From: Natrialba magadii ATCC 43099
GTDB taxonomy: Archaea; Halobacteriota; Halobacteria; Halobacteriales; Natrialbaceae
Direction: 5' to 3'
NCBI RefSeq assembly: GCF_000025625.1
Contig: NC_013922.1
Span: forward strand, 1,054,001-1,118,000
Length of the DNA stretch: 64,000 nt
Shown: piece by piece, positions 4,382 through 22,083 of the stretch
Position numbering within the stretch: the stretch's first letter is position 1
Layout of the letters: each line of letters starts with the position of its first letter
Position numbers and translations under genes: made by a program
Notes under the pieces: model-generated
Database searches by the model: none
Seen by the model: the letters and a program-made list of their open reading frames with translations, nothing else
What the model was told of the DNA's origin: nothing

Positions 4382-5377
4382 TTACCCGTAACTCTGTTCG
4401 GGCGTCGCCGGTCCGCTGAAGAGGGAGTACAGAAACAGGAAGTAGCCAACGATGATCGGCATGAAGATGGCCGCAAAGATCGTCGTCATGTTGAGCGGGA
4501 GCGGAGAGACGACGGCATCACGGACCGAGAGTCCGGCTGCGGGATCGATCGCAGGGTAGAGCAGCGTTCCGACGAAGACGACGAACGCGGCCGCGAGTCC
4601 TGCCGCTCCGAGAAACGCCGCGTGGTAGCGCTCGCGGAACGCGGCGAAGACGGTGGCAATCGAAAACACGACCGTGGCGACAACGATCGCTGCAGTCGAC
4701 GCCGACAGCAATACGGTGTGGAGGCCAGGGTACTGGACGAACAGCGTGATCGCCGTCAGTACGAACAGGCCGACGTAAATTCCCGTTGCTTGACGCCCAC
4801 GTCGCGTGACGTGATCACGGAGTTCCCCCCGCGTTTTGACGCCGAGAAACGCTGCACCGAGAACGATCGAGAGCGCGACGACCGTCACGCCGACGACGAG
4901 TGGGGCGATCGCCAGCGCGGAGGCCTCGCCAAGCACCCAACTCGCGACGAACACGCCGAGCAAGAAGGGTGACGCGATGCTCCCGGCAACGAAACAGGCA
5001 TCCCAGAAGCGAACCCACTCCTCGTCGTCGCGTTCCTCCCGGAGTTTCGATCCCAGTCCGCGCAGGGAAAGCGCCAGCAAGATCGCAAACACCAGCAGGT
5101 AGTGACGCGACAGAATGTTGGCGTAGACCGCGGGAAAGCCGGCGAACAGCACCGTCCCGAACAGGACGAGCCAGACTTCGTTGGCCTTCCACAGCGGGCC
5201 GAAAGCCGCGAGCAGCACCTCTCGGTCCGACTCGTCAGCCTCGGCAAACAGGATGCCGAGCCCGAAGTCGAAGCCGTCTAGCAGGAGGTACACGCCGAGC
5301 GCGAAGACGACCAGCCCGAACCATACCTCTGGCAACGACTCGATCATGTACGACGAGTCCGAGAGTATCTCAGTCAT
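4382..5377 (-). CDS. cydB: Cytochrome bd ubiquinol oxidase subunit II
   Basis: Membrane subunit of the high-affinity terminal quinol oxidase that reduces O2 to water. The 331-aa protein has about eight or nine hydrophobic segments and the family's N-terminal signature YLLLDGFDFGLGILF, then GPLWKANEVWLVLFG, both near-diagnostic for CydB. Its start codon lies inside the end of cydA (8-base overlap), so the two are translationally coupled in one operon, cydA first. The C terminus is ordinary. A bd oxidase would let the cell respire at low oxygen or in the presence of sulfide, which inhibits haem-copper oxidases; that is of interest given the sulfide-oxidation genes a few kilobases away. Confidence 0.96.
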   Translation of the reverse strand: MTEILSDSSYMIESLPEVWFGLVVFALGVYLLLDGFDFGLGILFAEADESDREVLLAAFGPLWKANEVWLVLFGTVLFAGFPAVYANILSRHYLLVFAILLALSLRGLGSKLREERDDEEWVRFWDACFVAGSIASPFLLGVFVASWVLGEASALAIAPLVVGVTVVALSIVLGAAFLGVKTRGELRDHVTRRGRQATGIYVGLFVLTAITLFVQYPGLHTVLLSASTAAIVVATVVFSIATVFAAFRERYHAAFLGAAGLAAAFVVFVGTLLYPAIDPAAGLSVRDAVVSPLPLNMTTIFAAIFMPIIVGYFLFLYSLFSGPATPEQSYG

Positions 5378-6842
5378 CGGCGGTCACCCCCGGTGAGTCT
5401 GGGCGATTGTCCTCTTCGATCCCAACCTCGTGTCGGGACGCTTCCTCGTCCACGATCCGTTTCAGGACGTACAGGAAGACGCTGAACAGCAGTACGTAAC
5501 CGATCACGAACGCGATCAGTGTCAGCGTCGCCTCCGTGCCTGAAAGCGGCGGTGAGACCCCCTCTGCGGTCGTGAGCACGTCCTGTATGATCCAGGGCTG
5601 GCGACCGATCTCGGCGACGTACCAGCCGGTGATCAGGGCGATGAACCCGAGTGGTGAAGAGACCATCAGCGCCTTCAGGAGCCGATCATCGTCGGCGAGC
5701 CCACCGCGCCAGAGCCGGTAGGTCCCCCAGGCCCCGAGCGCGATGAACCAGAAGCCAAGTCCGACCATGACCCGGAACGACCAGAACACCCAGGCGACGG
5801 GCGGTGACTCGTACTCGAAGTCGTTGAGCCCGGTGATCTCGGCGGTCGGATCACCCTCCGCCAGGAACGACGCCAGGTGCGGGATACTGATCGTATAGAG
5901 ATTATCCGCTCGCGGATCAGTAATCGACTCAAGTTCAGTTGGAATCGCGATCAGGTGGAGGTCGGCCTGACCGGTCTCGTAGTGGGCCTCCATGGCGGCA
6001 AACTTGTGGGGTTGGGTTTCGGCGACGTGACGGCCGTACATGTCGCCGTGGATGGCCTGGAACGCCGATGTCAGGAGCAAGACGACGACGGTAACGCGGA
6101 GGGCGGTCTTCCAGACCTCGCTGTCGCGGTTCTTCCAGACGAAGTAGGCGGCGATGCCAGCGATCAGCAGGGTCACCGAGATGACCGCGGCATTTTGCAT
6201 GTGGACGTACATCCAGGGGAATCGTGGATTGAAAAACGCCGCCATCGGATCGGTAAGCTGGGCGATCGGGAGGCCGTCTTCCATCACGACCTCGTACCCG
6301 CGTGGCGTCTGCATCCAGGAGTTGACGACGAGAATCCAGAACGCAGAGAGCCAGGCACCGAGTGCGACCATGAACGACGAGAGCGCGTAGAACCAGTCGG
6401 AGACGCGCTCACGGCCGAACAGTAAGACGCCAAGAAAGACGGCCTCCATCATGAACGCCATCTTGGCCTCGAAGGAAAGCGGGCCGCCGATCAGTTCGCC
6501 GGCGGTCTGTGAGAACGCCGCGAAGTTCGTCCCGAACATGAAGCCCATCGGGATGCCGGTGACGGTTCCCATAATGAATCCGACGGCGAAAATTTTCGTC
6601 CAGAACTTTCTGAGACGCGCGTAGCGTTGCTTTCCCGTCCGAACCTCCTGGACGGTGAAATAGACGAGAAACGGTGCGAGTCCGACCGAGAGTGCAGCGA
6701 AGATGATATGGATCGTAATCGTCCAGCCGAACTGGATCCGGCTGGCGAGTTCCGGCGTGAGAAACGCCAGTATCGGCCAGATCTCGGTCGTTAAAACCGT
6801 AAGTACGGCGTCGGTTGCCGACGTCGGTTGGCTAGCGTGCAT
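5370..6842 (-). CDS. cydA: Cytochrome bd ubiquinol oxidase subunit I
   Basis: Haem-bearing catalytic subunit (490 aa) of cytochrome bd. Family features visible: an early haem-ligand His in FGWTITIHIIFAALSVG (about residue 45), the acidic pair in SFEAKMAFMMEAVFLG (E125, E133) on the proton path, NSWMQTPRG at about 174-182, and GWYVAEIGRQPWII near the C terminus. The quinol-binding loop is of the short type. Start at the ATG giving MHASQPTSATDA; this leaves a ~30-residue extension before the first membrane helix, so a slightly later start is possible. It is the first gene of cydAB; regulatory candidates lie ~100-140 bases upstream. Confidence 0.96.
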   Translation of the reverse strand: MHASQPTSATDAVLTVLTTEIWPILAFLTPELASRIQFGWTITIHIIFAALSVGLAPFLVYFTVQEVRTGKQRYARLRKFWTKIFAVGFIMGTVTGIPMGFMFGTNFAAFSQTAGELIGGPLSFEAKMAFMMEAVFLGVLLFGRERVSDWFYALSSFMVALGAWLSAFWILVVNSWMQTPRGYEVVMEDGLPIAQLTDPMAAFFNPRFPWMYVHMQNAAVISVTLLIAGIAAYFVWKNRDSEVWKTALRVTVVVLLLTSAFQAIHGDMYGRHVAETQPHKFAAMEAHYETGQADLHLIAIPTELESITDPRADNLYTISIPHLASFLAEGDPTAEITGLNDFEYESPPVAWVFWSFRVMVGLGFWFIALGAWGTYRLWRGGLADDDRLLKALMVSSPLGFIALITGWYVAEIGRQPWIIQDVLTTAEGVSPPLSGTEATLTLIAFVIGYVLLFSVFLYVLKRIVDEEASRHEVGIEEDNRPDSPGVTADD

Positions 6843-7258: not shown

Positions 7259-8023
7259 TCAACTTCCCAGAGCGTCGTCAGTCTCGGCATCGGTATACCG
7301 GCCCAGATACCGCTTGACAAGTTTCGACTCGGCCATCCGAAGTCGATAGGAGAGCGTCGACTTCGGGATATCGAGTTCGGCCGAAAGCTCCCCAACCGTG
7401 ACTTCACGGGGCCGTTCGTAGTACCCACGTGCAGCCGCCTGTGCGACTGCCTCTCGTTGTGACCCGGTCAACTCGTCATCGACGAACGCGTCTCCGTGCC
7501 ACTCGGTCGCTTCTCCGAGCTGTCCAGCCTCGACGGTGACACCGTTCCTGCAGGCCGTTTCGATGTGTTCGAACAGCTCACCGACCGCTTCGTCGGACCG
7601 CATCAGGAGCCGCCACCGTTCCCGACCATCGTGCTGTCTTCGCTCGATAATCGTTCCCCGCTGGAGGTGTTCCGAGGCGATATTGTAGACTGACTGACAG
7701 TCGCAGATGTCTTCGACGTAGACGTATATTAGCCGCTGTCTCGGTGCACACTCGAGGCGATAGGAGGTACTCGTCCCACAACATCGATCCGTTCCGATTG
7801 CTCGCGGGAGATAATCACGGTCCTCGAGGACCGTCTGGAGGCGGTCGGCCACTTCCGGTGGGCCCCTGAGCTGGACGAGTCGCACGAACGACGTCCGACC
7901 GGTCGTGACGTCGATCGTTAGTGCTTCGAGATTCGGGTGGCTGTGATACATGTCTGCCACCGGGTCTTCGCCTTCGTCGTACGTCAGCGTGAACGTGAAC
8001 TCGCGAAGACGATCCGTCTTCAT
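7259..8023 (-). CDS. Bat-type (HTH_10) transcriptional regulator with cysteine cluster
   Basis: 254-aa haloarchaeal one-component regulator. The C-terminal HTH_10 domain of the bacterio-opsin-activator family is clear (about residues 185-243: LTGSQREAVAQAAARGYYE, then VGELSAELDIPKSTLSYRLR). The N-terminal ~180 residues form a sensor region with a striking cysteine set: C81-C82, C92, C107, C109 (DRCCG, LECAP, DICDC), plus C158. Such a cluster could bind a metal or sense redox state, oxygen or sulfur species. It is transcribed toward cydAB, so control of the bd oxidase is a reasonable inference; the 26-bp repeat lies between. The divergent neighbour is a Usp gene. No PAS or GAF domain is evident. 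Confidence 0.85.
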   Translation of the reverse strand: MKTDRLREFTFTLTYDEGEDPVADMYHSHPNLEALTIDVTTGRTSFVRLVQLRGPPEVADRLQTVLEDRDYLPRAIGTDRCCGTSTSYRLECAPRQRLIYVYVEDICDCQSVYNIASEHLQRGTIIERRQHDGRERWRLLMRSDEAVGELFEHIETACRNGVTVEAGQLGEATEWHGDAFVDDELTGSQREAVAQAAARGYYERPREVTVGELSAELDIPKSTLSYRLRMAESKLVKRYLGRYTDAETDDALGS

Positions 8024-12728: not shown

Positions 12729-13778
12729 TCAGTCGCCTCCGTCAAGGGTCGTTTGCGCGTGTGATTCGTCCGATCCGGTTTGCTGAACGACCTGGTAGAG
12801 GATCATCGCGGCGACGAAAAACGACGACCCGACTAACAGGAGGACGCTCACGAACTCGAGCGAACCGGTGCCGAGCCAGTCGGAGAGTTCGGAAAGCGCG
12901 ATGCCGATACTGGCAAACACCATCATGAGCCCGAAGTAGACGATCACGTCGTTCTCCTCGACGATCGTCGTCGCCGCGGAGCCGATCTTGGCGCCGAGGG
13001 CGCTGCCGACCAGCAACAGCGAGACGACTGTCAGGTCGACGCTGCCGGACATGCCGTAGGTGAAGGTTCCGAACGCACCCGAGAACAGCCCGGCGAACAG
13101 GCTCGTCCCAACCGCGGCCGTCAGGGGTGTGCCGATCAGGTAGTGGATGGCGGGCATGCGGATGAAGCCGCCACCGACGCCGATCAGCCCCGAGACGAGA
13201 CCGACGCCGCCGCCCGCGCCGGAGATCGTCCACACCGAGGCCCGACCGCCGGAGGTCAACGAGATCATTGGTGGCACGTTGTACGACTGGATCTTCTGTC
13301 CGATCGCTGGGATCTCGTCGTTCGCGTCGCTCTCGTCGTCCGTGTCGCTCTCGTCGTTCGCGTCGCTCTCGTCGTTCTCGAGGTTGTAGGCGCGTCGCAG
13401 GAACAGCGCCCCAATCCCAGCGAGCAGGACAATGTACGCGATTCCTGTGACGACTTCGGCGATCCCCAGTGCCTCGAGGGCGAAGACGAGCCGACTGCCG
13501 AGTTCGATCCCGACCGAGAGGACGACGAACAGAATCGCACCGAGTTTGTAGTCGACCTGGCCGATGTCGTAGTGTTTCAATACGGCGATGACGGAGGTGC
13601 CGAAGTAAAACGCCAGCCCGCTGCCAATCGCAACCGAGGCCGGGTAGTCGAGGATCAACAGGGTCGGCGTGATCAGGAAGGATCCGCCCATCCCGAAGAA
13701 GCCGAATAACACGCCGACCATGAAGCCGAAGCTCACGAACAACGCGAGCAGCGGCAGGCTGAGTCCGAGTATCTCCAT
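12729..13778 (-). CDS. TSUP (TauE/SafE) family exporter, probably sulfite or other sulfur anion
   Basis: 349-aa membrane protein with two four-helix halves, each opened by a glycine-rich motif: GVLFGFFGMGGSFLITP at ~22-38 and GLVSGLIGVGGGFIRMP at ~190-206. This is the TauE/SafE fold, whose members export sulfite, sulfoacetate or related anions. The cytoplasmic linker contains a repeated acidic hexapeptide, DESDAN / DESDTD / DESDAN, encoded by an 18-bp tandem repeat at ~13316-13378. It is the last gene of a unit that begins with the rhodanese-dioxygenase fusion, and sulfite is that enzyme's expected product, which supports sulfite export. Starts at ATG 13778, three bases after the preceding stop. 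Confidence 0.88.
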   Translation of the reverse strand: MEILGLSLPLLALFVSFGFMVGVLFGFFGMGGSFLITPTLLILDYPASVAIGSGLAFYFGTSVIAVLKHYDIGQVDYKLGAILFVVLSVGIELGSRLVFALEALGIAEVVTGIAYIVLLAGIGALFLRRAYNLENDESDANDESDTDDESDANDEIPAIGQKIQSYNVPPMISLTSGGRASVWTISGAGGGVGLVSGLIGVGGGFIRMPAIHYLIGTPLTAAVGTSLFAGLFSGAFGTFTYGMSGSVDLTVVSLLLVGSALGAKIGSAATTIVEENDVIVYFGLMMVFASIGIALSELSDWLGTGSLEFVSVLLLVGSSFFVAAMILYQVVQQTGSDESHAQTTLDGGD

Positions 13779-13946: not shown

Positions 13947-15122
13947 TTAATCGTCAGCGACAGCGCTGTCTTCGGTCGCGGCACAGCGGTTGGGACCAAG
14001 CTCGAGTTCGTTACGCTCGTCCTCGTCGTCGGGTTCGTAGACGCCGAGGTTCGTCTTGATGACCTTCTCGTAGTTCGGAGGCTTGGATGGGAGGTTGTCG
14101 AACATGTGTTCGACGAACTCGTCTTCCTCGAGTTGGATGATTTCGTTTTTCGCCCAGATCTCGCCGACGGTCGAGAACATCGGCATGCCGGGTTCGACGT
14201 CGATGTACTCGCCGCAGTTGGTCAGCGAGAAGTGTCCGGGCAGGATTTTGACGTGATCGGGCATCGTGGCGATCTTGTGCTGGAGCGTCTCGTACTGGAC
14301 GCGAGCGCCGGATTTGGCGTCTTCGCCGGCGAACTGGAGTTCGGTGCGCCCGATCGATTCGACGAACAACGTATCACCGGTCAGCAGTGCCTCGTCCTCG
14401 ACGAGATAGGCGGTCATACCGGTCGTGTGGCCCGGCGTATGAACCGCCTTGATGGACACGTCGCCGACCTCGACGGTCTCGTTGGGTTCGATCGGGTCGA
14501 ACTCGAACTGTGGATCACGTGTGTTGGCGGGCTCGCCGAGGTGGTACGGAACGCCATACTTCTCGGCAAGGCCTCGTCCCGCGGAGATGTGATCGGCGTG
14601 GATATGGGTGTCGAAGACGCGATCGATCTCGTAGCCGCGTTCGGCGGCAGCGTCCTCGAAGGCGTCGGTCGCACGGGTGACGTCGACGAGCGCGGCCTTG
14701 CCGGTGCGCTTCGAACCGATCAGGTAGCCCAGACAGCCCTTCGCACGACGCTGCAACTGGAGGAGTTCGAGGTCATCCCGCGTGGTCGCGATTGGGACGA
14801 CATCGTAGACCAGGCTCCAGTCTTCCATCCCGCCCTCGACGTGGGCGACGTTCTCGAATCCCTCGACCTCATCGAGGTACGCGGCGAACTTGCCAGCCGA
14901 GCGCCCCGTTGCACACGTGACGACGATCTCGTCGTTCGTGTCGTACGCTTCGGGGTCGAAGTCACCAACGAGTTCGTCGTCACTACCGGAGTACTCGACG
15001 TTTTCAGCCTCGGCGATGCGCCAGTCCTCGTAGTCTTCCGGTGCTCGCGTGTCAAAGAGCACGTCGAGGTTGTCAGCTTCGATTCGGTCTCGTAGCTCTG
15101 CTGCCGAAATGGCCTCTGGCAT
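13947..15122 (-). CDS. Rhodanese-persulfide dioxygenase (ETHE1-like MBL) fusion
   Basis: 391-aa two-domain enzyme. Residues ~1-110 are a rhodanese domain with catalytic C70 in VVTCATGRSAG. Residues ~115-360 are a metallo-beta-lactamase domain with DTHIHADHISAG (H173, H175, D177, H178), HTPGHTTG (H232), LLTGD (D250) and LPGHFS (H297). In ETHE1-type enzymes the equivalents of H173, H232 and D250 hold the iron. The expected reaction is oxidation of glutathione-like or low-molecular-weight persulfide to sulfite, with sulfur transfer by the rhodanese. Start taken at MPEAISAAEL; a start three codons earlier is equally possible. A TATA-like CTTAATATT on the minus strand (15158-15149) is ~30 bases before the ATG. 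Confidence 0.9.
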   Translation of the reverse strand: MPEAISAAELRDRIEADNLDVLFDTRAPEDYEDWRIAEAENVEYSGSDDELVGDFDPEAYDTNDEIVVTCATGRSAGKFAAYLDEVEGFENVAHVEGGMEDWSLVYDVVPIATTRDDLELLQLQRRAKGCLGYLIGSKRTGKAALVDVTRATDAFEDAAAERGYEIDRVFDTHIHADHISAGRGLAEKYGVPYHLGEPANTRDPQFEFDPIEPNETVEVGDVSIKAVHTPGHTTGMTAYLVEDEALLTGDTLFVESIGRTELQFAGEDAKSGARVQYETLQHKIATMPDHVKILPGHFSLTNCGEYIDVEPGMPMFSTVGEIWAKNEIIQLEEDEFVEHMFDNLPSKPPNYEKVIKTNLGVYEPDDEDERNELELGPNRCAATEDSAVADD

Positions 15123-15234
15123 ACAGTACAAACCTCGAACTGCCCAATATTAAGACTTCGAGCAGCCAGAATAATTGGTCCTTTCGGGCAGTCTGTGACG
15201 AACTCGGGGCAAGAAGGGACAGAAGTTGCCGACA

Positions 15235-15324: not shown

Positions 15325-16371
15325 TTACTTGGTATCAGGGTCGTCCGGAGAGTGTGCGTGACCGTCGTGTTCGACTGCCGTTGTGGCGAGTTCAGCGGAG
15401 AGTGCCGGCACGTCCGCATCAGTAACCGAACCCTCCGTCTCGAACTCCTCGAGTGAACGCGGAAATGCTCGTAGTTCTTTGTGGATGGTAATGCCGGCGA
15501 TTGCGCCCTCACCCATCGCAACCGGAATCTGGCTGTATCCCGGCGTGAGGTCACCGACCGCGTAGACGCCGTCGACCGACGTCTGGCCGTGGTCGTCGAC
15601 GGCGACGGAACCGTCTTCGGTGCGCTCTATGTCGAGTCCCTCGACGACCTCGTCGTGGTAGTCTGAACCATACATTGGGAAGCCGCCGCTGTAGGCACGA
15701 ACCTGCCCGTCTTCGAACTCGAAGGATTCGAGCCAGCCGTCGTCGTTCTTGTTCATCCCTGTTATTTCTGCAGTGACGACATCGACAGGATGGTACTCGA
15801 GCATCGTCGCCGTCTCGTCGCTCCAGGACGGGTCCTCGCCTCGGGTGAGCAAGTCGACGTCGTCGGTGAAGTTCAACAGAATCATCGCGACGTGTGCGCC
15901 AGCCTCGCCCGCCCCCATCACGTAGACCGGTTCGTCGACGAACATGAAGGCATCACAGAGGAGGCAGTAGTGCAGTCCCCGACCGGTCGGCGGGAGCGGT
16001 GGATCGGGCCGTTTGTCGGCAAAGCCCGTTGCGAGAACGACCCGAGAGACCCGATAGGATTCAGCATCCGTCTCGACGCGGAAGCCGTCATCGGCCGCCT
16101 CGCCGAGTGGCGTCACCGACTCGACGAACCCCCGTTCGACATCGGCGCCATATCCCTGTACCTGTTCGCGGGCGGTCTGTAGCAGTTCGTTGCCCGAGAC
16201 CGCTTCCGTGATCCCGATCACGTTGTGCGTCTCTTGCATCATTGCGGCACGTCCACCGCCCCGGTCGATGACCACTGTATCGAGTGCCAACCGTGTCGTG
16301 TACAGCGCACTCGTCAACCCAGCGGGCCCGCCACCGACGACTGCAACGTCGTAATCGAATCCCGTATGCAT
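15325..16371 (-). CDS. Thioredoxin-reductase-like FAD/NAD(P) oxidoreductase
   Basis: 348-aa class-II pyridine nucleotide-disulfide oxidoreductase. N-terminal FAD motif VAVVGGGPAGLTSALYT (about 9-25), central redox motif YCLLCDAF with C136 and C139 as CxxC, NAD(P) site VYVMGAGEAGAHVA, and the closing FAD motif GVYAVGDLTPGYSQIP. The tail after residue ~310 is His/Asp rich. Thioredoxin reductases have CATC at the active site; CLLC is unusual. It may reduce a thioredoxin-like partner or persulfide-type substrate. It stands between peroxiredoxin and rhodanese-dioxygenase genes on the same strand. A/T-rich ATTTTTAC ~28 bases upstream could be its TATA box. Confidence 0.88.
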   Translation of the reverse strand: MHTGFDYDVAVVGGGPAGLTSALYTTRLALDTVVIDRGGGRAAMMQETHNVIGITEAVSGNELLQTAREQVQGYGADVERGFVESVTPLGEAADDGFRVETDAESYRVSRVVLATGFADKRPDPPLPPTGRGLHYCLLCDAFMFVDEPVYVMGAGEAGAHVAMILLNFTDDVDLLTRGEDPSWSDETATMLEYHPVDVVTAEITGMNKNDDGWLESFEFEDGQVRAYSGGFPMYGSDYHDEVVEGLDIERTEDGSVAVDDHGQTSVDGVYAVGDLTPGYSQIPVAMGEGAIAGITIHKELRAFPRSLEEFETEGSVTDADVPALSAELATTAVEHDGHAHSPDDPDTK

Positions 16372-16474: not shown

Positions 16475-16777
16475 TTACTCGAGACACGCAGTTACCATCC
16501 GTTCGGAAACGTCTGGCCGACCCGTCGCGCTCATGGCCAGAACAATGCCGGCTGTCGAGAGGCCAGCTTCGTCGAGCGTGCGGGCCTCTGCTTCGGCGTC
16601 CGAGAGACCACGTTCGTAGTAGTGTTCGTTGATCCGATCGTGGTGCTGCCGGACGAGTTCGAGTGCGAACTGTTTGACTGACGACTGTTGGCCGTCAGTC
16701 GACGGGCCGCCGGCTGCAAGCTCGTTAATCCGTTCGACCAGCTCATCAGGGTCGCTGCTCACGGTAGCTTCACCCAT
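16475..16777 (-). CDS. Hypothetical 100-aa protein
   Basis: Acidic, helical protein (MGEATVSSDPDELVERINEL ... ) with a His-rich middle (RQHHDRINEHYYERG). No family recognised. The case for a real gene: haloarchaeal amino-acid composition, a TATA-like CGTATAAGT on the minus strand (16808-16800) ~27 bases before the ATG, and good fit between flavoprotein and peroxiredoxin genes on the same strand. A regulatory or partner role in the thiol/sulfur cluster is possible but unsupported. Confidence 0.6.
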   Translation of the reverse strand: MGEATVSSDPDELVERINELAAGGPSTDGQQSSVKQFALELVRQHHDRINEHYYERGLSDAEAEARTLDEAGLSTAGIVLAMSATGRPDVSERMVTACLE

Positions 16778-16935: not shown

Positions 16936-17613
16936 TTACGACTCGAGTTCTTTCAGCGTGAACCACCAATCGTAGGACTCGTAGCCCTCCTCGTCAGCCT
17001 CGGCAGTTCGTGCTTCAGCCTCGTCGACGGTTCCTGGCGGTGAGAGCAGGACCTTATCGCCGAAGTTCTCGTTCTCGGGCCAGTTGGCCGGCAGTGCGAC
17101 ACCTTCCTGGTCGGACGTCTGGAGTGCTTCGAGCGAGCGCAGCACCTCGTCGACGTTGCGGCCGATCTCCTTGGGGTAGTAGAGAACCTGGCGCGTGATC
17201 CCATCAGGGTCGACGATGAAGACCGCACGGACAGTCGATGACCCCTGGCCGGGATGGACCATCCCGAGCGCGTCGGCGACATCGCCGCTTTCGTCGGCAA
17301 TAATTGGGAAGTCGATCTTCTCGTCGATCTCCTCGTCGATCCACTCGGTCCACTTGATGTGTGAGTGGACGCGGTCGATCGAGAGGCCGATCAGTTCGGT
17401 GTTCAGCTCTTCGAACGCCTCGCGGCGCTGTTCGAAGCCGACGAACTCCGTCGTACAGACCGGCGTGAAGTCACCGGGGTGACTGAAGAGGATAAACCAC
17501 TTACCCTCGTAGTCGTCCGGAATCGACTTTGGACCGTGGGTCGTCTCTACCTCGAGTTCAGGGAACTGGTCGCCGATGAGTGGGAATCCACTCTCGTCGC
17601 TTTCGTCAGTCAT
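16936..17613 (-). CDS. 1-Cys peroxiredoxin (Prx6-like)
   Basis: 225-aa peroxidase that reduces peroxides through C53 in the motif [13 protein letters not shown]. That is the only cysteine in the protein, so it lacks a resolving cysteine and must be recycled by an external thiol. Other family features: [30 protein letters not shown] and the long C-terminal dimerisation domain ([19 protein letters not shown]). The TATA-like GTTATAG ~30 bases upstream (17646-17640) suggests its own leaderless promoter. Its place inside the sulfide island fits protection against reactive oxygen and persulfide species; the neighbouring CxxC flavoprotein could supply electrons (inference). Confidence 0.93.
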
Positions 17614-17815: not shown

Positions 17816-18661
17816 CTAGTTCGACCGTGCCGACCCCATCCGCCGAAGGAACTCGACGAGAACACCGAGCCCCTGCCGGACGTCGTCGTCGCGAAGCGCA
17901 CCGAGCATCCCCAGCAGACCGATCTTTTTCGGTGGTTCCTCCTCGGTGAACGCACCGAGACCCGACTCGACGGAGTTGATGAGTTCCTCATCGCCGAGCT
18001 GACACCCTAACACGAGCATATTCCCGAGATTCTGTCCGAGCTGATAGGGCTCGAGGTCGGCGTCGGTGTAGGCGTGGCTGAACCCAGCGACCATCATCCG
18101 AAGCTCCGTGATCGGCTGGCGGTTCTCCTGGACGACCGCCACAGCCTCGGGCACCAGGTCCTCCGCGAGTTCGTAGGTTACGTCGAGCAACTCGAGTAGT
18201 TCGATCAACGTCTCCTCGTTCTCACCGAGTCGTTCGAGCAGCGTGAGCGTCTCCTCACGTTCCAGTGCGACCCGGATCCGCGCGATCGTCTCGCGGTTCT
18301 CGCGAACGATCGTCTTGAGTTCCGGAACCAGATCGCCCACGAGTTCGTCGACGACCTCGAGCAGTTCGAGGAGTTCGACGAGCGTATCGGCGTTCTCGCC
18401 GACCCGCTGGACGAGCACGAGCGTTTCCTCTTGCTCTAGGGCCGTCCGTAACTCGGCGATGGGCTCGCGGGAGTCGTGGGCTGCCTCGCGGAGTTCGGGC
18501 GCGAGATCAGCCGACAGCTCCTGGACGACGACGAGCGTCTCGAGAAGTTCGGCGAGTTCCTCGTCGTTTTCCTCGAGCGTCTCAGCGAGTTCGTTTACTT
18601 CGGCGGCCTCGAAGGGCGTATCGTCGAAGTCACCGTCTACCGATTGGTCTTTCTGAGCCAT
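17816..18661 (-). CDS. DUF1641 protein, partner of sulfide:quinone oxidoreductase
   Basis: 281-aa highly acidic helical protein built of three similar ~45-residue helical repeats, each with ELLE.L.VV.EL and a later R..LE.EETL.L..R.GEN segment. It ends in the DUF1641 signature KKIGLLGMLGALRDDDVRQG and LGVLVEFLRRMG. Its ATG is one base after the SQR stop codon, so it is co-translated with SQR. DUF1641 proteins are regularly found beside SQR-like flavoproteins; they may tether or regulate them at the membrane, though no mechanism is established. The repeat count of three is my reading of the sequence. Confidence 0.85.
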   Translation of the reverse strand: MAQKDQSVDGDFDDTPFEAAEVNELAETLEENDEELAELLETLVVVQELSADLAPELREAAHDSREPIAELRTALEQEETLVLVQRVGENADTLVELLELLEVVDELVGDLVPELKTIVRENRETIARIRVALEREETLTLLERLGENEETLIELLELLDVTYELAEDLVPEAVAVVQENRQPITELRMMVAGFSHAYTDADLEPYQLGQNLGNMLVLGCQLGDEELINSVESGLGAFTEEEPPKKIGLLGMLGALRDDDVRQGLGVLVEFLRRMGSARSN

Positions 18662-18662
18662 G

Positions 18663-19835
18663 TTACGGAAGTGGATCGTAGCCTTTCATCCAGGCGTCCC
18701 AGTAGACCGACGGGAGGACGTTGACGTCCATGATCCAGTTCATCTTGCTCTCGACGGGCGCGGAGATTGGCCCCTCGTAATCGAACTCGGCGATCAACGC
18801 CTTGCCCTTCTTGGTGAGCAACGGACAGGCAGCGTAGCCGTCGTACTCCGCGAGCATCGGCTGATCGTTTAGCAGCGACGTCAGATTCTTCGAGACGACG
18901 TGTGCCTGTTTGCGTGCGGCCGCGGCCGTCTTCGAGTGAGGGGCGTTCTCACAGTCTCCCAGCGCGAAGACGTTGTCGTAGTCGTCGTGCTGGCAGGTGT
19001 GTTGGTCTATAGTGATGTACTCGCCGGACTCGGAGCCGTCCGCAAGCGGCGATTCCTCGGTAATCGCTTTCTGGCCGAACTGTGGAGTGACCGGCGCGTA
19101 GAGGTCGTATTCGATTTCTTCACCGTCAGCACCGTAGACGACGCCCGCGTCGGGGTCGACCCGGTCGACGGAGAAGTTCTCGACGAACTCGATATCACGG
19201 TCGTCCCAGATCTCGTACAGTTTGTCGCGGTAGGGCTGCACGCCGAAGTGGTGTTCGGCGTTTCGGGTCATGATTACCTCGACATCGTCGCGAATACCCT
19301 GTCGACGGAAGTAGTCCTCCGCGAGCATCGTCAGTTTCAACGGGGCACCCGGACACTTGATCGGCGTATCGGGCTGGGTGACGAGGAACGTCCCACCGTC
19401 GAAATTCTCGAGGGCCTCGCGCATCTGGAGGGCAGCCTCGTAGTGGTAGAACGGGTAGACGTCATCGTGTTCTTCCCAGGCTTCGACCAGTCCCGGCATC
19501 GCGCTCGGATCGAGTCGATGTCCGGTCGCGACGACGAGGTAATCGTACTCGAGTTCGCCCCCGTCCTCGAGCGAGACGGTTTCCTCGCTAGGGTCGATGC
19601 CGGTGACGGCGTCGTGAACGAACTCGACGCCCGGCTTGAGGAGCTCATCGACGTCTCGCGACTGATCGGGTTCGAGGTAGCCAAACGGGATGAGGTAAAA
19701 CGACGGTTGGTAGTAGTGATCGGTGCTCTTGTCGACGACGGTGATGTCGGCCTCGTCCGCGTCCAGTTTTCGGCGGAGAAGGTTCGCGGTCATCGCACCG
19801 CCGGAACCAGAACCTGCAACGACTATCTTAGCCAT
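18663..19835 (-). CDS. sqr: Sulfide:quinone oxidoreductase (type II-like)
   Basis: 390-aa peripheral membrane flavoprotein oxidising sulfide to zero-valent sulfur/persulfide and passing electrons to quinone. FAD motif IVVAGSGSGGAMTANLL at the N terminus, LVVATGHRLDP, and VFALGDCENAPHSKTAAA near residue 289-306. The two active-site cysteines of the eukaryotic/type II group are recognisable: C161 in DTPIKCPGAPLK and C337 in YDGYAACPLLT. C-terminal residues include hydrophobic/aromatic stretches (MNWIMDVNVLPSVYWDAW) for membrane contact. It is the first gene of an SQR-DUF1641 operon; TATA-like GTTATAG lies ~23 bases before the ATG, so the mRNA is probably leaderless or nearly so. Confidence 0.93.
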   Translation of the reverse strand: MAKIVVAGSGSGGAMTANLLRRKLDADEADITVVDKSTDHYYQPSFYLIPFGYLEPDQSRDVDELLKPGVEFVHDAVTGIDPSEETVSLEDGGELEYDYLVVATGHRLDPSAMPGLVEAWEEHDDVYPFYHYEAALQMREALENFDGGTFLVTQPDTPIKCPGAPLKLTMLAEDYFRRQGIRDDVEVIMTRNAEHHFGVQPYRDKLYEIWDDRDIEFVENFSVDRVDPDAGVVYGADGEEIEYDLYAPVTPQFGQKAITEESPLADGSESGEYITIDQHTCQHDDYDNVFALGDCENAPHSKTAAAARKQAHVVSKNLTSLLNDQPMLAEYDGYAACPLLTKKGKALIAEFDYEGPISAPVESKMNWIMDVNVLPSVYWDAWMKGYDPLP

Positions 19836-19854: not shown

Positions 19855-19861
19855 CTATAAC
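19855..19861 (-). promoter_or_regulatory. TATA-like box of sqr
   Basis: GTTATAG on the minus strand, centred ~23 bases before the sqr ATG, within the usual distance for a leaderless haloarchaeal transcript. Confidence 0.45.
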
Positions 19862-19967
19862 ACCTAAGTCTGTACGTAGGCGAAATAATGCCGACTGACA
19901 AACGACAACTGGCTCGTTAGTGAAAATATTGCGGGAACCTGGATGGGTCGCCCCGGCGCGATCACAG

Positions 19968-20007
19968 CGTGGGTACTCGAGGGACGACGTGGGTACTCGA
20001 GGGACGA
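19968..20007. repeat. Two perfect tandem copies of a 20-bp unit upstream of sqr
   Basis: The unit CGTGGGTACTCGAGGGACGA occurs at 19968-19987 and 19988-20007 without a mismatch. It lies ~110-150 bases upstream of the sqr TATA box and 52 bases after the stop of the HTH-rhodanese gene. It could be a duplicated regulator site or a slippage product. Confidence 0.9.
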
Positions 20008-20059: not shown

Positions 20060-21160
20060 TCACTCGTCTGTCTCCGTTTCGACGGGGACGTCGATGAGGT
20101 TCCCCCATTCGATCCACGACCCGTCGTAGTTGGAAACAGTGTCGTAGCCGATCAGTTCGGAGAGGACGAACCAGACGATCGACGATCGTTCGCCGACGTG
20201 GCAGTACACGATCGTCTCCGTGTCCGGGTCGACGCCGTGGTGGTGGAACAGTCGTTCGAGTTCGGATCGATCCTTGAACCGGCTGTTCTCGTCGATTACT
20301 TCCGACCACGTAATATGGACGGTGCCGGGGATGTGGCCCCCAACACGGGCCTCAGGGAGGACTTTGTCTGGTGGCTTCGTTCGGTCGCCCTCGTACTCGA
20401 GTTCCGATCGAACGTCGACGATCGTCACGTTTTGTGCGAGCGCCGCTTCCACGTCGGTTCGGTAGGCGCGGATCTGTTCGTTGGGAGTGGGTGCCTCGTA
20501 CGTCTGCTGGGACACGTCCGGTTCGTCGGTCGTCATCGGACCGCCGATTTCCTCCCATCGGTGCTTGCCACCGTCGAGGAGCCGAACCTCGGTATGGCGG
20601 TAGTATTTGAGCAGCCAGAACAGATAGGCTGCATACTGGTTCTGGTGCGTGCTGTAGACGACGATCGTACTCTCGTCCGTGATCCCACGGTTGCCGAGGT
20701 ACTCTTCGAAACACCGCCTGTCGGCGATTCCGCAACCGTCGACGTCGACGAGGTCGGCGAGGACATCGATTTGCACGGCGCCTGGAACGTGGCCGTCGTC
20801 GTACTCACCGTCAGCTTCGACGAGTCGAAGGGACGGATCGTCCCGTTTGAACTCCTGGAGTCGCTCCTCGACCCACTCGGGAGAGACGAGCACTGTCGAG
20901 TCGCTTTCGTCACCGGCACCGGCGGATGTCCCGGTCAGTTTGTAACACGTCTGCCGGCCGTCGTGAAGCGCTGGCGACGAATCGAGGAGTTCGGCTTCCT
21001 CGAGCTGGTCGAGTCCATAGCGGGCCGTCCGTGACGAGAGCATCGTCTCCTCGGTCAGCCCCTTGAGGGTCATCGGCCCGTTATCTGCGAGCGTTTTGTA
21101 GATGAATTTTGAACTCGGTGGGAGGTCGTCGAGCGCCTCATCGGGTTGGGTTTCCGCCAT
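20060..21160 (-). CDS. Winged-helix domain fused to tandem rhodanese (thiosulfate sulfurtransferase)
   Basis: 366-aa fusion. Residues ~15-75 are a winged HTH (KTLADNGPMTLKGLTEETM, SSRTARYGLDQLEE, then a wing ending CYKL). Residues ~88-215 form a rhodanese domain without the catalytic cysteine (VVYSTHQNQYAAY, Ser170 at that place). Residues ~220-360 are an active rhodanese domain with C320 in VYCHVGERSS. The two-rhodanese part is a classic thiosulfate:cyanide sulfurtransferase layout. Joining it to a DNA-binding head suggests a regulator that reads sulfane sulfur on C320, or an enzyme that controls its own operon; this is inference. It lies upstream of sqr on the same strand. TATA-like CTGTATAGGTAC lies ~34 bases before the ATG. 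Confidence 0.87.
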   Translation of the reverse strand: MAETQPDEALDDLPPSSKFIYKTLADNGPMTLKGLTEETMLSSRTARYGLDQLEEAELLDSSPALHDGRQTCYKLTGTSAGAGDESDSTVLVSPEWVEERLQEFKRDDPSLRLVEADGEYDDGHVPGAVQIDVLADLVDVDGCGIADRRCFEEYLGNRGITDESTIVVYSTHQNQYAAYLFWLLKYYRHTEVRLLDGGKHRWEEIGGPMTTDEPDVSQQTYEAPTPNEQIRAYRTDVEAALAQNVTIVDVRSELEYEGDRTKPPDKVLPEARVGGHIPGTVHITWSEVIDENSRFKDRSELERLFHHHGVDPDTETIVYCHVGERSSIVWFVLSELIGYDTVSNYDGSWIEWGNLIDVPVETETDE

Positions 21161-22083
21161 GGCTGAACTAGATGTGCCTACGGTTTGTACCTATACAGCT
21201 TTTTCGTCCCGACAACGAGCGCGGCGCCACGACCGTTCCAGTCAGCCGGCTCGGGCGCTTGTTCCCACGAATATTGCGATACCGTTTACAATAGTATGTC
21301 TGTAAATGGCGTAAGTACGATCAATAATTGCTCGTTCGGTCAACGAGCGCTCTGGTATTGACTGCGAGGCGTCGTTCGCATCCCTCCGCACGATTTCCAT
21401 TGATAGGCCAATATAACAAATTCAAACTATAGTATGTATACGAACATATACTGGGTCGCTCACCTGTGTGGATAATTAGTACTGAAATGGATTTATGGGG
21501 CGCAGAGGCGGCTCTAACGGCAGAAATGGTCTTTCTACCGACGTGCGAGGGATCCTCTGTCGACGGCTCGGAAATCAATACCGTTCCTGGATAATCTAGC
21601 GAAGGTATCGATCTACAGCCGTCATTTTGCATTCGAGGCCAGGATGTGTGTTTTGGGGACTCACCGAAATCCCCAGCGTGACTCACAGGCCAATATTGAT
21701 TATCTAAACAGTATATTTAGAAAAGTACCAGAATGAGTTCATTTATTGAATGGGTATACTACCTCCACGTGCGCTCGTCCAGAAAGGGCGTTGTTCCCGT
21801 CAGTGAGGACGTCCGCTTTCCCACGCGCAGGTGGCCCCAGGCATCTTCATAGCCGTGACAGTAGTTACAGCGTATCGAGGCGAAAGCCGTGGGAGGTGGT
21901 CACTGCCGGGATCTGTTGCGAGAGCGGGCAGTAATGCCGTCCGCCGAATCGTCGGTTTCCGTGATCGCGCCCGCCGCGTCGACGGCACGATCAACGTTGT
22001 CGAGGCGGTACTCGAGAACCGCCACGAGGAACGAGCTTTCGTGCGGGTTCTATGGCGTCGAAATATCGACCGCCGAAGCCGAT
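21161..22083. other. 923-bp intergenic region, A/T-rich in its left part
   Basis: Lies between the HTH-rhodanese start (minus) and the HAD gene stop (minus). 21280-21730 is much more A/T-rich than the window average; 21790-22083 returns to normal GC. The 10-mer AGGCCAATAT occurs at about 21405 and again at about 21686 in direct orientation. Frames in it (for example 21321-21686, minus) lack acidic composition and show no family features, so I call no gene. It could be decayed foreign DNA. Confidence 0.5.

Follow-up and report, generated by a model that had tools for sequence, protein, structure and literature searches.

A Winged HTH-Tandem Rhodanese Fusion Encoded beside sqr in Natrialba magadii: A Predicted Regulator and Candidate Sulfane-Sulfur Sensor

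Introduction

A gene of Natrialba magadii ATCC 43099 lies next to sqr, the gene of a sulfide:quinone oxidoreductase (SQR), and encodes in one chain a winged HTH and a two-domain rhodanese. The question raised by this locus is whether the protein is a transcription factor that reads sulfur through an enzyme of its own or a sulfurtransferase of the pathway. If the first were true, an enzyme that handles sulfur would have turned into the sensory half of a transcription regulator. We analysed the locus within a stretch of 64,000 nt (NC_013922.1, forward-strand positions 1,054,001-1,118,000), hereafter the window, to which all coordinates refer. According to the original prediction, no characterised regulator of such architecture is known, and our search of the open-access literature agrees: we found there no paper on a wHTH-tandem rhodanese fusion, no regulator of haloarchaeal sulfide oxidation that has been characterised, nor any regulator that senses through a complete tandem sulfurtransferase. 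Databases contain proteins in which a single rhodanese domain is joined to an ArsR head.

Architecture of the Fusion Protein

The gene and its two parts are the following.

20060..21160, minus strand: wHTH-tandem rhodanese fusion gene, 366 aa (ORF, Pfam, PDB, AF2 model)
20933..21133, minus strand: winged HTH domain, residues ~10-76 (AF2 and Foldseek to MarR-type regulators; stand-alone haloarchaeal paralogs)
20075..20896, minus strand: tandem rhodanese domains, residues 89-362 (Pfam, PDB, Foldseek)

The open reading frame is intact and begins with ATG. In the AF2 model, residues 4-75 form a four-helix winged HTH with a mean pLDDT of 85, in which the recognition helix covers residues ~43-55 and the wing strands residues 59-63 and 71-75. 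AlphaFold predicted this fold confidently both within the full chain and in the isolated head, and the linker that joins the head to the rhodanese part (residues 78-87) was modelled with low confidence. The top structural matches of the isolated head in the PDB, detected by Foldseek, were MarR-type regulators. By Pfam, the head matched HTH_20 (20-60), MarR (23-70), and HTH_27 (26-76), all weakly (E ~4e-4) and under the curated cut-offs; the MarR score was 20.5 bits against a cut-off of 24.6. The modelled head consists of four helices and the wing, and is without the dimerisation helices that canonical MarR proteins have at both termini. The fusion protein gave no Pfam match to HTH_5 (ArsR-type) at E up to 1, and residues 1-90 contain no CXXC.

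The rhodanese part was recognised by Pfam as two domains (E 1.1e-28). A phmmer search against the PDB matched Thermus 1uar to residues 89-361 with E 5.8e-65, and the nearest PDB relatives are this protein and the mycobacterial thiosulfate sulfurtransferases; superposition on solved tandem rhodaneses gave Foldseek TMt values of 0.90-0.94. The protein has the layout of the TST/MST type, two rhodanese domains with the catalytic cysteine in the second. The predicted order, a winged HTH and then a two-domain rhodanese, is therefore borne out by the reading frame, the PDB matches, and the AF2 fold, and the presence of this architecture beside sqr is confirmed.

Genomic Context

The neighbouring genes that concern us here are listed in their order on the minus strand, beginning with the one that follows the fusion gene.

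18663..19835, minus strand: sqr, type III-like sulfide:quinone oxidoreductase (NCBIfam NF049943, E 2.4e-95, under the curated cut-off; conserved neighbour)
17816..18661, minus strand: DUF1641 protein, adjoins sqr (Pfam PF07849)
16936..17613, minus strand: peroxiredoxin, AhpC/TSA and 1-Cys Prx C-terminal domain (domain matches; motif upstream in many relatives)
16475..16777, minus strand: 100-aa conserved protein (no Pfam family; conserved neighbour)
15325..16371, minus strand: thioredoxin-reductase-like flavoprotein disulfide reductase (TIGR01292, E 1.4e-45, under the curated cut-off)
13947..15131, minus strand: rhodanese and metallo-beta-lactamase protein, persulfide-dioxygenase-like (Pfam)
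12729..13778, minus strand: TauE/SafE sulfite exporter (Pfam)
7259..8023, minus strand: second regulator of the island, HVO_2928_N and HTH_10 (Pfam)
4382..6842, minus strand: cydB and cydA, cytochrome bd oxidase (Pfam)

As had been proposed, the fusion gene is located upstream of sqr; it is directly so and on the same strand. The series runs on to the TauE/SafE gene, with the HTH_10 regulator and cydAB beyond. This second regulator adjoins cydAB and possibly regulates the oxidase genes. The dioxygenase-like gene and the fusion gene are divergently oriented in other clades. Fusion genes that are away from SQR adjoin dioxygenase-like or cytochrome bd genes, among them two second copies (L048 and L058) which are beside cytochrome bd genes rather than sqr. 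The sole exception is L045, whose fusion has neither an SQR neighbour nor the wing cysteine described below; it adjoins a Na+/H+ antiporter gene, and a molybdopterin oxidoreductase gene is found some kb away.

Distribution and Origin

Two surveys were carried out. In the first, covering 242 sampled haloarchaeal species, full-length fusions were found in 18 genomes, and stand-alone tandem rhodaneses in nearly all, N. magadii included. The SQR subfamily of the window occurred in 23 of the 242 genomes, that is, in all 18 with the fusion and in 5 without it (Fisher 5e-23, a value uncorrected for phylogeny). The second survey, of 84,980 prokaryote species represented by one genome each, gave 22 fusion-type loci, in haloarchaea alone and all beside SQR (one clipped by a contig end); several of these 22 are from species already in the first set. 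It had been suggested to look for the same fusion next to SQR genes elsewhere, and this arrangement was present in nearly every fusion locus. Named species with close relatives of the fusion include Natronorubrum thiooxidans, N. sulfidifaciens, and Haloferax profundi. One bacterial locus (L212) with an apparent match to the HTH region was discarded, as no single open frame ran from the matched start.

The rhodanese parts of the fusions make up one side of a single branch of the tree (support 99/96). This topology supports that the fusion arose once and gives no support to independent fusion events, with less certainty for the long branches L051, L057, and L058. The head also has a stand-alone wHTH paralog (L005, L111-L122), a protein of ~97 aa which is near-universal in haloarchaea and has a recognition helix similar to that of the fusion. 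Several of these paralogs end in a cysteine-bearing C-terminal tail, CCAE or SCTAD.

Conserved Promoter Site

By placing the upstream regions of the fusion gene and sqr side by side, GCAATWATTGC-like sites were spotted; with the palindromic variant GAAATWATTTC the motif was extended to GMAATWATTKC, an 11-bp near-palindrome. Matches were counted with up to 2 mismatches allowed and with shuffled sequences as controls. The motif was present in 31 of 35 sqr promoters (shuffled mean 3.3), 34 of 38 fusion promoters (5.4), 26 of 34 dioxygenase-like promoters (3.8), and 21 of 28 Prx promoters (4.0); at the cydA, TauE, DUF1641, and TrxR promoters 0 or 1 was found. These counts refer to a short and AT-rich motif, first recognised in the same promoters and drawn from sets that overlap those counted. 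A cleaner test is given by 16 loci that were not used for the first motif, of which 14 had it in the sqr promoter (shuffled 1.25), although some of them were already known when the motif was widened to M/K. Position was conserved as well: measured from the sqr start, the best match fell between -95 and -102 in 33 of 35 loci and in 15 of 16 held out, and whole sqr promoters were only about 50-73% alike to that of the window. Because the loci are related by descent, probabilities calculated for the motif overstate independence. At -95 to -102 the SQR genes of fusion-free genomes lacked the motif, and so did second SQR copies. The conserved site is a candidate operator that would tie the fusion gene to sqr and to the persulfide-dioxygenase-like and peroxiredoxin genes.

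The elements identified in the window are the following.

19922..19932, minus strand: candidate sqr operator GCAATATTTTC, 97 bp upstream of the sqr start codon
21321..21331, minus strand: candidate operator upstream of the fusion gene GCAATTATTGA (motif match)
21270..21277, minus strand: second site GCAATATT of the fusion-gene upstream region (repeated exactly in the sqr promoter)
21285..21306, no strand: palindrome TTTACA-N10-TGTAAA between the two candidate fusion-gene sites (retained by several relatives in the clade of the window)
21190..21206, minus strand: core-promoter-like element of the fusion gene CGAAAAAGCTGTATAGG (conserved)
19855..19868, minus strand: core-promoter-like element of sqr CTTAGGTGTTATAG (conserved)
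19968..20007, no strand: 2 x 20-bp direct repeat (exact; private to N. magadii among the loci compared)

The octamer of the second site has exactly 2 copies in the 64-kb window, in the fusion and sqr promoters only, against 0.23 expected. The direct repeat between the fusion gene and sqr, to which the original prediction had drawn attention, does exist and is exact. It is not the conserved site, which is that at 19922-19932, and we rejected it as operator, given that its unit occurs in no other locus compared and that in the nearest relative the stretch is present once and has diverged.

Could the motif belong to another regulator, either the HTH_10 protein or the stand-alone wHTH paralog, so that the fusion would not be the regulator of sqr? 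The HTH_10 gene is in the same island, and the paralog, with its similar recognition helix, is present in most haloarchaea. Against this, the SQR genes are without the motif in genomes that have the HTH_10 regulator but no fusion, and the motif is not frequent across the N. magadii genome despite the paralog being there. We consider this explanation very unlikely. With up to 1 mismatch, the genome of N. magadii had 22 sites versus 20 for the reversed control, which is no enrichment, and a genome-wide regulon cannot be read from the motif; the lack of enrichment agrees with a local regulator, though it is no proof of one. Pairs of motif sites 123-124 bp apart were seen at two other places in this genome (L133/L134 and L136/L137), where no clear link to sulfur genes was apparent.

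Cysteines and the Active-Site Loop

Two codons are of interest in the fusion gene.

20201..20203, minus strand: catalytic Cys320 in CHVGERS (in every fusion reaching that position)
20945..20947, minus strand: Cys72, in the second wing strand (alignment of fusions versus stand-alone HTH paralogs)

Cys320 is placed in the second rhodanese domain as claimed, and every complete fusion keeps the whole tandem rhodanese with it. The serine at position 170 of the first domain is also located where it had been put, but its reading as a special inactivation was ruled out: Gly occupies this position in 29/29 stand-alone relatives compared, so a residue other than cysteine is usual in the N-terminal domain of this type of enzyme. 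Cys72 is the one conserved cysteine of the head. It was present in 21/23 fusions of the first set and in 22/22 full-length fusions of the named alignment, and the corresponding residue of the stand-alone HTH paralogs examined was Leu, Ile, or Lys, never Cys. The divergent fusions L045 and L057 are without it, and L057 still adjoins sqr. The residue that follows the catalytic cysteine, 321, is Arg in 29/29 stand-alone rhodaneses, and the 31/31 fusions have His, Asn, Ser, or Gly instead; with His321, the N. magadii protein departs from the C-R-x-G-E-R-S loop of its stand-alone relatives. Judging from these alignments, what sets the fusions apart is the wing cysteine and the loss of Arg beside Cys320, rather than Ser170. 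In bovine rhodanese, basic residues of the active-site loop take part in the handling of thiosulfate. Taking this into account, the loss of Arg321 is likely to have changed the sulfur-donor preference of the fusions with respect to that of stand-alone rhodaneses.

These residues bear on two other explanations. One is that the rhodanese serves as an ordinary sulfurtransferase of the pathway and that the head exerts a constitutive or autogenous control without sulfur-dependent switching. It would agree with the intact fold and Cys320, and also with the fact that sulfurtransferases normally accompany SQR and persulfide dioxygenase, as described for Rhodobacter capsulatus (PMC9995734). Against it, all fusions have lost the Arg that is invariant in the stand-alone proteins, and the head has a wing cysteine missing from stand-alone heads. 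N. magadii, besides, already has tandem rhodaneses of the stand-alone kind. We regard this explanation as unlikely. The other is that Cys72 reacts directly with oxidants or polysulfide, as in a thiol redox sensor, the rhodanese part not being the sensing element. The conservation of Cys72 and the motif upstream of Prx genes speak for it, Prx and TrxR-like genes in the cluster would agree with a signal of oxidative nature, and MarR-type proteins are known whose cysteines react with sulfane sulfur and oxidants (PMC11211675). Against it are the entire tandem rhodanese, retained together with Cys320 in every complete fusion, and a neighbourhood that is first of all one of sulfide oxidation; we judge it quite unlikely.

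Proposed Mechanism

The fusion protein is predicted, with high likelihood, to act as a regulator. Considering that its gene adjoins the sulfide-oxidation genes and shares a promoter signal with them, it is probably a new sulfur sensor of the on-board type. Our model, to which we give about an even chance, is that of a one-component, enzyme-based sulfane-sulfur sensor that controls a haloarchaeal sulfide-oxidation island, and in which the persulfide on Cys320 is signalled to the wing via Cys72. The ligand would be sulfane sulfur, that is, persulfide, polysulfide, or thiosulfate-derived sulfur. The compact MarR-like winged HTH would bind GMAATWATTKC upstream of sqr and of the fusion gene itself, with sites before the persulfide-dioxygenase-like and peroxiredoxin genes as further targets in many species. 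As SQR makes sulfane sulfur, the rhodanese part would take a sulfur atom onto Cys320, and the state of this residue would be communicated to the head. The most likely route is a transfer of the persulfide to Cys72 in the wing, or a disulfide or polysulfide link with it; the sulfur state at Cys72 would in turn alter DNA binding. This route from Cys320 to Cys72 is put forward tentatively, at a little under even probability. More doubtful is a version in which sensing occurs by enzymatic turnover, where the sulfur of Cys320 would be relayed to Cys72 and the flux of sulfane sulfur, not the level alone, would set the transcription of the archaeal genes for sulfide oxidation.

Binding to the palindrome as a dimer is an assumption, since the head is without the canonical dimerisation helices. 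With regard to the direction of control, the candidate operator sites of the window do not overlap the core-promoter-like elements but precede them by about 54-140 bp, and activation is therefore slightly favoured over repression. The conserved site, the two defined cysteines, and the compact set of targets make the model directly testable.

Comparison with Known Systems

SqrR and BigR are bacterial ArsR-type persulfide-responsive repressors that sense through two cysteines of the HTH protein, which become linked when persulfide reacts with them. The likeness lies in a winged-HTH regulator tied to SQR or to persulfide-dioxygenase/sulfurtransferase genes, and in a TauE exporter, a peroxiredoxin, and a disulfide reductase nearby (PMC9995734, PMC5823870); cysteine chemistry as the switch, for the fusion protein a proposal, would be a further one. 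In contrast, the fusion head is not ArsR-type by Pfam, has a single conserved cysteine in the wing, and is attached to a complete sulfurtransferase. Elemental sulfur switches the DNA binding of SurR, an archaeal winged-HTH regulator of Thermococcales (PMC7278568); SurR has a CXXC motif of its own, whereas the fusion head has none and carries a sulfurtransferase. Sulfane sulfur acts on cysteine thiols of MarR, MexR, OhrR, and MgrA (PMC11211675). The head shares with this family the winged-HTH fold of MarR type, which gave its best structural matches, and differs from it in being of ~75 residues without dimerisation helices and in a Pfam MarR score under the cut-off. By function, the fusion protein would be grouped with SqrR, BigR, and SurR; by family, with none of them.

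On the enzyme side, the tandem sulfurtransferases (Thermus 1uar, mycobacterial CysA2/SseA) have the same fold, the two-domain layout, and the cysteine in a CxxGERS loop; the fusion adds the N-terminal winged HTH, loses the Arg after the catalytic cysteine, and has Ser for Gly at 170. The pair formed by an HTH_10 (HVO_2928-type) regulator and a stand-alone tandem rhodanese is similar in that a regulator accompanies a tandem rhodanese in SQR loci, and different in that there are two separate genes and an unrelated DNA-binding family. It was found in SQR loci without the fusion (L123-L127), where the HVO_2928_N/HTH_10 gene is directly upstream of the stand-alone tandem rhodanese and close to sqr, four of these loci being also near cydAB. 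The occurrence of this pair in haloarchaea that have SQR and no fusion suggests that a regulator and this enzyme have been paired on more than one occasion.
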